Origin: Actinomycetota bacterium
GTDB lineage: Bacteria > Actinomycetota > Actinomycetes > S36-B12
Length of the DNA: 37,522 bases
Direction of reading: 5' to 3'
Assembly (NCBI GenBank): GCA_030652695.1
Contig: JAUSQD010000019.1
Span: 1-37,522 of the forward strand
The notes beneath the pieces are model-generated. The model searched no databases and had not been told where the DNA came from. It saw nothing but the letters and a program-made list of their open reading frames with translations. Of the stretch, positions 770-4,483 are shown in pieces (the first letter of the stretch is position 1; every line of letters starts with the position of its first letter). A program made the position numbers and the translations under genes.

Positions 770-1435
770 GTGTCAGTCTCAAGCCGGGATCCGGCTCCGG
801 CGTGGCTCACGCATGCCATGTCCGCCAAGGGCTTCATGCCCACTGACGAGGGTCTGCTGCTGCACCAGTGCGCCCTGGACCGCTTGCCCTTTGGCCCCGC
901 GCTGGAGATCGGATCGTACTGTGGCAAGTCGGCGATCTTCCTTGGCGCCGCAGCGCAGATCGTGGGTGGCACCGTGTTCACCCTGGACCACCATCGTGGC
1001 TCAGAGGAGAACCAGGCTGGCTGGGAGCATCACGACGACAGCCTGGTTGATCCCGAACTGGGACTGATGGACACCTTGCCGACCCTGCGCCGCAACTTGG
1101 CCAGAGCGCAGATCGAGGATGTCGTCGTTCCCATCGTGGCAAGCAGCGCAACGGTGGCCTCGCACTGGCGCACCCCCCTGTCATTGCTGTTCATTGACGG
1201 CGGTCACTCCGATCTCCCGGCGCAACAGGACTATGCAGGATGGGCTCCGTGGATCATGGCCGAGGGACTTCTGGTGATTCACGATGTCTTTCCTGACCCA
1301 GCGGACGGTGGTCAAGCGCCATTCAAGGTGTGGACACGTGCGCTTGCGGGCGGGAGCTTTGCTGAAGTCCAGACTCAGGGGTCGATGCGTGTCCTACGAC
1401 GGATTGCTGGTCAGGCTGGCGACTTGCTCCAATGA
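770..1435 (+). CDS. Class I SAM-dependent methyltransferase (Methyltransf_24-like)
   Basis: This 221-residue soluble protein has a Rossmann methyltransferase core. Motif I is [12 protein letters not shown] (about 44-55), an acidic loop reads FTLDHH (70-75), and FIDGGHS (141-147) plus VIHDVF (169-174) match the Methyltransf_24 class of small-molecule or sugar methyltransferases. The substrate is unknown. The GTG start follows a candidate leaderless promoter. It is transcribed divergently from infC, and its last 42 bp overlap the 3' end of the convergent alpha-toroid gene. With the next three minus-strand genes it forms a set that, to my recollection, recurs in other actinobacteria. It is one of only two plus-strand genes here. 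Fold assignment is firm; function is not. Confidence 0.85.
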
Positions 1436-2509
1436 CGCGCAGTCGCATTCGAGCGCTATCTCGCGAAAGTCGGGACCAAAACTGGTGCCCCTCATGATTC
1501 CTGATCCGGCGCTCGCACCACCCGCGACAGCACCGAGGGCATCCACCGCCAAGATCACTGCCGCGGCCGTATAGGTCGTGTGTTCCACCGGCCAGAACTG
1601 ATTCTGGTCGGGCTGATTCCCGAAGACCCATCCTGTCCAGTACTCGCCGCGCTCGCTGCGCAGGTGCTGCATCTCCCGCAGGAGCCGCACTGCGCGCGCG
1701 TGGTCGCCAAGAGCATCAAGGGCCATCGCCAATTCACAGGTTTCAGCGCCAGTCACCCACGGGTTGGTATCCACACATCGAATTCCCAACCCTGCAACGA
1801 CAAAGTCCTTCCATCTGCTCTCGAGCATCGCCAATGCCTCAGGTCCACGCACCGCGCCACCCAGGATCGGGTAGTACCAGTCCATCGAATATGTCGACTT
1901 GTCAGCAAAGCAGTCCGGATGTTCACGGATCGCGTGACCTAGACGACCACCGGCCAGTTCCCACTCGGGCTGCGGATCATCGAGCAGCTCGGCCAAGGCC
2001 ACACCTGCACGAAGGGACTGATAAATGCTGGACGAGCCAGCAAGCAGGGCAAAGCGCTCAGTGGGGGTCCATTGGATCCCGCCGAATGGCAGCTGCTGGG
2101 AGATCACCCAGTCAAGACCGCGACGAACGGACGGCCAGAAGTGCTGCACGAATCCCAAGTCGCGCCTGAGCAGCCAGTGGTGCCAAATGCCAACGGCGAG
2201 ATAGGCGGACATATTGACTTCGCCTCGATCATCGACCACCTCACCACGCACGATCTTCATTGGCCAGGAACCATCAGGACGCTGCATTGTGGGCACCCAT
2301 GCATACGCCCGCTCGGCTGCTGCAGTTTCGCCGCCGACGAGCAGAGCCATCGCAGCTTCCACGTGATTCCAGATGTCGGTGTGCTCCCCCGTGGCCCACG
2401 GGATCGCTCCGCAGGGTTCTTGCACCATGGCAATCGCCCGTGCTGTCATCGACACTTCTTGGGAGGTCAGGACGCCATTGACATATGGAATGCACGGATG
2501 ATCTGTCAT
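1394..2509 (-). CDS. Alpha/alpha-toroid protein, annotated prenyltransferase-like in relatives
   Basis: This 371-residue protein has no signal peptide or membrane segment. It is built of repeated helical hairpins with aromatic-rich turns: [20 protein letters not shown] (about 38-57), [24 protein letters not shown] and DWYYPILGG. The QxxDGSW-type element resembles the QW motifs of terpene cyclase or prenyltransferase toroids, but (alpha/alpha)6 glycosidases and epimerases share this shape. No DDxD prenyltransferase or cyclase motif is evident, so the enzymatic role is open. Its ATG overlaps the stop of the upstream methyltransferase as ATGA, implying coupled translation. Its 3' end overlaps the convergent methyltransferase gene by 42 bp, leaving no room for a terminator. 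Confidence 0.75.
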
Positions 2510-3225
2510 CCGCTCAACGGCTTCCTGAAGTACAGCACCAGACTCTTGCCAATCAACGGGTCAAGAATCCGACCGGCTAGTTGCAGAATCTTCGGCTGGT
2601 GCACGATCTCCCAGACCAGGAGGCGGTGGTAGGCGCGCGCAATCGGGTTGCCGTCATTCCTGACTCCCACCGCGCACTTGATCCACCAATACGGCGAATG
2701 CAGCCCGTGCGCGTACTGCTTGCCCTGATAGACCATGCCGGTGTCCACGATCTTGGCGATCAACTCAGCTTCGGAGTAGATCCGAATGTGTCCACCTTCA
2801 ACATTGTGGTACTCGTCGGAGAGTTTCCAATTCACAGTCTCGGGAAACCAACGGGGCACTGACACAGCCAATGTTCCACCGGGACGAAGCACGCGGACCA
2901 GCTCTGCGATGGCCAGCAGGTCTGCAGGAATGTGTTCGAGAACCTCGGCCGCCACAACTCGGTCGAACTCGCCATCGGGAAAAGGCAGATGCAGGGCATC
3001 CCCCTGCTGGGTCTGGCTCTGGGCCCCCGCGGGTGCCTGACCGTCGGCGAGCATGAGAGCAAATACCTGCTCGACATCAGCAAGCTCTTGAGCATTCATG
3101 TCAAAGGCCGTGACATCTGCGCCGAGTCGATACATCTCAAAGGCGTGCCGGCCTGCTCCACATCCCATGTCGAGTACTCGGTCGCCAGCTCGCAAGCCCA
3201 GCTTGGTGAAATCAACGGTGAGCAT
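2506..3225 (-). CDS. Class I SAM-dependent methyltransferase (Methyltransf_11-like)
   Basis: This 239-residue protein has SAM-binding motif I VLDMGCGAGRHAFEM near residues 19-33, an acidic residue ending strand 2 (VTAFD), GDALHLPFPDGEFD (motif II/III) and LRPGGTLAVSVPR. The C-terminal half, with GGHIRIYSEAELI and HSPYWWIKCAVG, is distinctive and probably recognises the substrate, which is unknown. I chose ATGCTCACCGTTGATTTC at 3225 because the fold begins there, giving a 14-bp overlap with the glycosyltransferase. An in-frame ATG at 3267 is the alternative. The 372-residue track ORF runs into the upstream gene and is too long. The stop is shared (ATGA) with the alpha-toroid gene, so the two are probably co-translated. 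Confidence 0.88.
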   Translation of the reverse strand: MLTVDFTKLGLRAGDRVLDMGCGAGRHAFEMYRLGADVTAFDMNAQELADVEQVFALMLADGQAPAGAQSQTQQGDALHLPFPDGEFDRVVAAEVLEHIPADLLAIAELVRVLRPGGTLAVSVPRWFPETVNWKLSDEYHNVEGGHIRIYSEAELIAKIVDTGMVYQGKQYAHGLHSPYWWIKCAVGVRNDGNPIARAYHRLLVWEIVHQPKILQLAGRILDPLIGKSLVLYFRKPLSG

Positions 3226-4483
3226 GCACAGCGCCCTGGTCGTCACGGCGTTCACTGTGGAAGTCATCGATGACCTGTGCATAGGCGGCCGCCACTTTGA
3301 CTGCAACAGCCTTCCAGCTGAACAGCTCCAGTACGCGTGCGCGCCCGGCTGCACCCATCTGCTCACGGCGAGCCGGATCGTCCAGCAGTCCTTCAAGGGC
3401 GGCGAGGAGCTCACCAACATCACCGGGTGTGACCAGATCGGCACACAGGCCATCGGGGCCAACCACTTCAGGGATCGCCCCCGCGCGCGAAACCACAAGC
3501 GGCGTGCCACACGCCATGAGCTCCGCAGTTGGCAGTGAGAAGCCCTCGTACAGCGAGGGCACGCAGGCGACTTCAGCAGAACCCATGATCGCCACCAATT
3601 CGGCATCGCTGACGTCACTGACAAAGCTCACCGCATCCGCGATGGACAGGGACTCGATCAACCGTTCAGTTCGACCCCCAGGGCGAGGCTTGGTCACCAA
3701 GAGGAGTTCGACTTCTCGCTCTGTGCGCAGCTTCGCGAACGCTTCCAACAGCGTTGCGATTCCCTTCATCGGTGCGTCGGCGCTTGCCATCGCCAGTATT
3801 CGACCTGGAATGCGGGCAACCGTGGGCGGAACAAAGCCTTCGTCGACCCCGAGAAGAATCGCTTCCACGCGGGAGGGATCAACTCCAAAGTCGCGCACCA
3901 CATCGCGCACGGACGCCTGCGATGGCGTCAGGATGCGACGGGAGGCACGTGCCACCTTGGCCTGCATACGAAGGAATCCATACCAACGCCAAAGGGTGAA
4001 CTTGCGCCACGGGTTTGCAGTTGCCGCAATGTCGATGCGTCGATCGAAAGTGATCGGATGATGAATCGTAGTGATGAGCGGCAGACCATCGTCTTCGATC
4101 TGAAGCATGCCGTAGCCCAGTGTTTGATTGTCGTGCGCGATGTCAAAGTCGTCGCCTCGCTCTTTCAGCATTCGAGCTACGCGCAGGCTGAAGGTCTTGG
4201 GTTCGGGAAACCCAGCGGTGCACATCGTTGCGAATTCTTCGACATCAACCAGGTCGCGAAATTCTCGATAGTGCGGGATGCGGAATGGATCCTCGTCCCG
4301 GTACAGATCAAGACTGGGCACCTGTGTCAGGGCAACGCCTGCGTCCAATTCGGGGTACGGCTGTCCGGAGAACACCTCAACGGTGTGACCAAGCGCGACA
4401 AGTTCTCGACTGAGATGACGAATGTAGATTCCTTGCCCACCACAGTGCGGCTTGCTCCGATACGACAACAGCGCAATGCGCAT
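3212..4483 (-). CDS. GT4-family glycosyltransferase (GT-B fold)
   Basis: This 423-residue enzyme has a GT-B fold. The N-terminal Rossmann half begins MRIALLSYRSKPHCGGQGIY, including the GGQGIY loop of GT4 enzymes. The C-terminal nucleotide-sugar half carries EGFSLPTAELMACGTPLVVS (E-x7-E type) and AGAIPEVVG. It should transfer a sugar from a nucleotide-sugar donor with retention; donor and acceptor are unknown. The start at 4483 is preceded by GGAAGGATTGAGTCG, a reasonable Shine-Dalgarno, and the next upstream ATG would add 60 non-conserved residues. It is the first gene of the glycosyltransferase-methyltransferase-toroid run, overlapping the methyltransferase by 14 bp. No signal peptide or membrane segment is present, so it acts in the cytoplasm or at the inner membrane face. 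Confidence 0.9.
   Translation of the reverse strand: MRIALLSYRSKPHCGGQGIYIRHLSRELVALGHTVEVFSGQPYPELDAGVALTQVPSLDLYRDEDPFRIPHYREFRDLVDVEEFATMCTAGFPEPKTFSLRVARMLKERGDDFDIAHDNQTLGYGMLQIEDDGLPLITTIHHPITFDRRIDIAATANPWRKFTLWRWYGFLRMQAKVARASRRILTPSQASVRDVVRDFGVDPSRVEAILLGVDEGFVPPTVARIPGRILAMASADAPMKGIATLLEAFAKLRTEREVELLLVTKPRPGGRTERLIESLSIADAVSFVSDVSDAELVAIMGSAEVACVPSLYEGFSLPTAELMACGTPLVVSRAGAIPEVVGPDGLCADLVTPGDVGELLAALEGLLDDPARREQMGAAGRARVLELFSWKAVAVKVAAAYAQVIDDFHSERRDDQGAVHAHR

Follow-up and report, generated by a model that had tools for sequence, protein, structure and literature searches.

A methylmannose polysaccharide-type gene cluster between sseB and infC in an S36-B12 actinomycete, probably acquired from a Nocardioidaceae-like donor

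Introduction

In nontuberculous mycobacteria, the genes meT1, mmpH, pmeT3 and manT form the cluster for 3-O-methylmannose polysaccharide (MMP); the activity of pMeT3 was still putative when the cluster was described in 2023 (PMC9883506). Mutation of ManT showed that K240, E313 and E321 are required for activity (PMC9883506). In M. hassiacum, MmpH has Asp47 as putative acid and Glu262 as base, with Asp50 and Trp315 as secondary active-site residues; the Asp50 to alanine mutant also lost most of its activity, and mutagenesis left open which aspartate is the acid (PMC9883506). Outside the mycobacteria, Streptomyces griseus makes an acetylated MMP (cited in PMC9883506). MMP and its glucose counterpart regulate the type I fatty acid synthase (FAS-I) in vitro, from which the idea of a role in fatty acid regulation arose, but that role has already been doubted on the basis of mutants (PMC2674218).

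Here we describe a homologous cluster on a 37,522-nucleotide stretch of actinobacterial DNA (the window), which is the whole of one contig (C132) from a 2.16-Mb assembly of 199 contigs and 89.6% completeness.

A four-gene locus homologous to the mycobacterial cluster

The four genes that an initial annotation had placed between positions 770 and 4483 were all recovered as open reading frames. Three lie on the minus strand: a manT homologue (3212-4483), predicted to encode a GDP-mannose-dependent alpha-(1->4)-mannosyltransferase of family GT4; a pmeT3 homologue (2506-3225), a putative MMP 3-O-methyltransferase named from its Methyltransf_11 domain and synteny; and an mmpH homologue (1394-2509), predicted to encode an MMP alpha-(1->4)-endomannosidase with an (alpha/alpha)6 toroid fold. 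The fourth, a meT1 homologue on the plus strand (770-1435), converges on them and is predicted to encode the SAM-dependent 1-O-methyltransferase that caps the reducing end of MMP. We take the ATG at 3225, which is residue 14 of the translated frame P0003, as the start of the pmeT3 homologue. Because the alignments of homologues begin at this codon, its overlap of 14 bp with manT is supported; it shares a further 4 bp with mmpH. Open reading frame coordinates thus bear out both the two overlaps and the convergent second methyltransferase of the initial annotation, to which we add a tail-to-tail overlap of 42 bp between the 3' ends of mmpH and meT1 (1394-1435). Outside the cluster, its context is given by infC (IF-3) with its leader region (1-769, minus strand) and an sseB-like gene (4579-5046, minus strand; PF07179, E 8.7e-15), the right-hand and left-hand neighbours, respectively, at the ancestral site.

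Pfam and NCBIfam give the cluster proteins only generic names, which explains the earlier impression of an unknown function. The view that none of the proteins has an assigned substrate is contradicted by matches to solved structures. The GT4 protein matches PDB 7QSG (E 3e-153), which is ManT according to PMC9883506 despite its different PDB name. The toroid protein matches 7QSJ, the methylmannose polysaccharide hydrolase MmpH (E 9.7e-115). The convergent methyltransferase (Pfam Methyltransf_24) matches 6G7D over residues 16-220 (E 6.5e-77) and occupies the same place and orientation as meT1 in the published and related clusters; we take 6G7D, 6G80 and 6H40 to be MeT1. No close relative of the pmeT3 homologue was found among solved structures, and its counterparts at the equivalent position of mycobacterial clusters, between manT and mmpH, share 53-60% identity with it. 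Overall, the four genes are approximately 50-60% identical to their mycobacterial counterparts. Because three proteins match solved enzymes near full length (E 1e-153 to 1e-76) and the fourth is placed by synteny, the set is, as judged from homology, not a chance pattern.

On these comparisons the four genes are homologues of manT, pmeT3, mmpH and meT1, and the pathway is one already known. The initial annotation had proposed an undescribed pathway; a homologous cluster has, however, been characterised and its product is known (PMC9883506), and the identification takes the set off the list of unknown pathways. We assign a probability of roughly 0.93 to the reading that this is a cluster for MMP biosynthesis and recycling, with content, order and orientation as in mycobacteria, which was transferred whole from a Nocardioidaceae-like donor and is now flanked by sseB and infC. 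As the best explanation, this has its direct basis in homology, synteny, conserved residues, nesting in a phylogenetic tree and comparison with uninterrupted sites; from these we infer the enzyme activities and the production of MMP in this organism.

By homology, MmpH would cleave mature cytoplasmic MMP into defined oligomannosides, to which ManT would add alpha-(1->4)-linked mannose from GDP-mannose. The putative pMeT3 would methylate the newly added mannose units at O-3 and MeT1 would cap the free reducing ends at O-1, after which the daughter chains would mature to MMP.

Conserved and variable active-site residues

The locus shares with the cluster of nontuberculous mycobacteria (PMC9883506) all four genes, the manT-pmeT3-mmpH order, the convergent meT1, the catalytic residues of ManT and the acid and base of MmpH. 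The ManT homologue keeps G15, K240, E313 and E321 at identical residue numbers. In the MmpH homologue the acid and base are retained as D45 and E256, equivalent to Asp47 and Glu262, and both positions are invariant in 151 out of 151 MmpH homologues from syntenic clusters. Asp50 and Trp315, in contrast, are not conserved, and are replaced by Asn48 and Tyr313. Among these 151 homologues, 79 have Asp and 72 have Asn at position 50, and position 315 is occupied by Trp (86), Tyr (62) or Phe (3). The sample is weighted towards close relatives, yet each state occurs in many genera. Since Asn and Tyr are both common natural variants, we take these positions as subfamily variation rather than as family-defining. 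The Asp/Asn variation bears on the identity of the catalytic acid: a residue that is Asn in half of the family is unlikely to be the acid catalyst, which makes Asp47 a better candidate than Asp50. Details of chain length or substrate may differ in an enzyme with Asn48 and Tyr313.

These substitutions, of kinds common outside mycobacteria, raise the question of whether the product is not MMP itself but a relative of it, for example a mannan that is acetylated, lacks the cap or carries another methylation pattern, or a polymer of another chain length. The acetylated polymer of Streptomyces griseus (cited in PMC9883506), like MMP a methylmannose polymer but made outside the mycobacteria, would be a precedent, and in some lineages no meT1 was detected close to the core; in presumed Streptomyces loci it lies several kb off or was not found nearby. 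We nevertheless regard a different polymer as unlikely, given that the full set of four genes, with meT1, is present at the identities noted above, that the key ManT residues are unchanged and that no acyltransferase recurs beside the cluster. A match above the cut-off to glucosyl-3-phosphoglycerate synthase was also found in the window's genome, which may therefore also encode the first step towards the glucose-based polysaccharide or towards glucosylglycerate.

The cluster across Actinomycetota

The initial annotation had suggested a survey of gene neighbourhoods across Actinomycetota. In ours, the families co-occur: the manT-pmeT3-mmpH order recurs in nearly all of approximately 150 related loci, and most of these have meT1 next to it, usually in convergent orientation. 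A scan of named genomes with MmpH, considering the best 80 of at least 578 relatives, found the nearest in Nocardioides and Aeromicrobium (MmpH 59-75% identical), followed by mycobacteria, Rhodococcus, Actinomadura, Saccharopolyspora, Nocardia, Dietzia and others. The order holds throughout the named loci except at contig ends, with meT1 next to the core in most and usually convergent; order and convergent meT1 are the same in Nocardioides, Mycobacterium, Actinomadura, Saccharopolyspora and others. A search beside the related clusters for a conserved fifth gene revealed none that recurs.

MmpH was detected in 92 of 397 sampled Actinomycetota genomes, from 23 families. Forty MmpH regions, mostly from other classes of the phylum, were examined; nearly all have the three-gene core, and in around three quarters the stretch also includes meT1, at times farther away or in the opposite orientation. 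This shows that the cluster reaches far beyond the mycobacteria and the few relatives surveyed in 2023 (PMC9883506). The lineage of the window is a new host, not named in the main text of that paper.

No meT1 was found in the flanks examined of L080, L083 (Dietzia), L081 (Williamsia), L082, L087 (Nocardia), L084 (Rhizohabitans) and L060 (Sphaerisporangium), where the reducing end of the polymer may be capped otherwise or free. In one locus (L171, genome G238) meT1 points the same way as its three partners instead of converging on them; this genome has FAS-I, and its cluster branches with those of Nocardia and mycobacteria.

Insertion between sseB and infC

The host of the window belongs to another order than the mycobacteria, and the site of its cluster, between sseB and infC, is also different. 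The clusters of Nocardioides and Aeromicrobium (loci L015-L036) share 59-80% identity in every gene, the arrangement and the Asn at MmpH position 50, but differ in host order, in GC content (71-72% versus 61% here) and in chromosomal place. We compared the site among genus-mates, of which only two of eight (G007 and G004) have MmpH. As the initial annotation had it, the set interrupts the sseB-infC neighbourhood: the two genes are adjacent and uninterrupted in seven of the eight, namely the six without MmpH and G004. The cluster separates these two genes in the window and in G007, where the ancestral infC leader sequence is retained on the infC side. G004 carries its cluster on a different contig (L186, G004:C179), beside a cation-efflux-type gene, a probable transporter named from its sequence. 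The uninterrupted sites are positive observations and so are stronger evidence than absence of the cluster from incomplete genomes. We reject a chimeric assembly because G007, an independent genus-mate, shows the sseB-cluster-infC order as well.

In a tree built on ManT, pMeT3 and MmpH together, the window and G007 group with support of 1.0 inside a Nocardioidaceae clade of 26 (support 1.0), with support of 0.83-0.99 for the nodes within this clade that lead to the window. Cluster copies from the window's own family and order are placed elsewhere, far from the window. Because the copy nests in Nocardioidaceae and seven of eight genus-mates keep sseB and infC uninterrupted, we conclude that the whole cluster was probably acquired horizontally from a Nocardioidaceae-like donor. 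In GC content the cluster (60.6%) matches the remainder of the window (60.2%) and not the Nocardioidaceae loci, so the transfer was not recent and would have to be old and ameliorated.

The match in GC content would suit vertical inheritance followed by loss in most genus-mates, and the cluster is patchy in the order generally, a pattern that loss can also yield. We judge this history distinctly improbable: the tree separates the window's copy from those of its own family and order, and the site differs between the window and G007 on the one hand and G004 on the other.

InfC of the window has 91-93% identical counterparts in the genus-mates. The infC leader (window positions 482-769) is well conserved among genus-mates over approximately 200 bases, and may be a regulatory leader. 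The tree also places an MMP cluster from an assembly titled as an Acidobacteria MAG (L073, JAKIXW010000005.1) inside the mycobacterial clade; this assembly is probably mislabelled or contaminated.

Co-occurrence with FAS-I

FAS-I was searched for with the marker PF08354 in 397 genomes, sampled in the same way and under the same genome handles as for the MmpH count, with Corynebacterium glutamicum as positive control. It was found in 23 of the 397: 17 genomes have both MmpH and FAS-I, 75 have MmpH without FAS-I and 6 have FAS-I without MmpH. The association (Fisher P = 1.4e-7, uncorrected for kinship) rests on one family (f10, 15 out of 15); among the 77 MmpH carriers from all other families, FAS-I was found in only 2. 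No PF08354 match was found in the window's genome (89.6% complete) or in any of the eight genus-mates, a further difference from the mycobacterial hosts. The window's genome does encode a stand-alone FabF-like enzyme, whose gene lies at a contig edge and which scores slightly below the curated cut-off.

Since 75 of 92 MmpH carriers are without FAS-I, its regulation cannot be the general purpose of MMP-type polysaccharides. We see about even odds that the polymer is ancient and widely distributed among actinobacteria, with a main role other than FAS-I regulation and the mycobacterial link secondary. On that reading, as most carriers of the cluster, including the window's genus, are without detectable FAS-I, its function would have to be sought in something general, with acyl-CoA handling with FAS-II, cold adaptation or storage as candidates. 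The idea of FAS-I regulation is now testable in cultivable hosts such as Nocardioides.

Readings of the toroid protein and a minor observation

A squalene cyclase is not indicated by the toroid's best match of that kind (SQHop_cyclase, E 0.05, below the cut-off), nor a glucoamylase by its score against oligosaccharide amylase (26 bits versus a cut-off of 821). The initial annotation had left the toroid as glycosidase- or cyclase-like; the glycosidase half agrees with an MmpH-type alpha-endomannosidase homologue, and the squalene-cyclase and epimerase alternatives find no support. Similarly, its methylated glycoside, made by a sugar transferase and two methyltransferases, was close to right, while a lipid-modifying step is not indicated. 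That the genes serve an undescribed pathway to a cyclised lipid or a methylated glycolipid, a reading which could draw on the generic family names (GT4, methyltransferase, toroid) and the very weak squalene-hopene cyclase match, is highly improbable against three specific and far stronger matches to enzymes of methylmannose oligomers.

Elsewhere in the window (33891-35903), a frame of 670 amino acids reads by eye, in translation, as a GcpE (ispG)-like part with a GNAT-like acetyltransferase half behind it; this may be a fusion of normally separate genes or a frame error.
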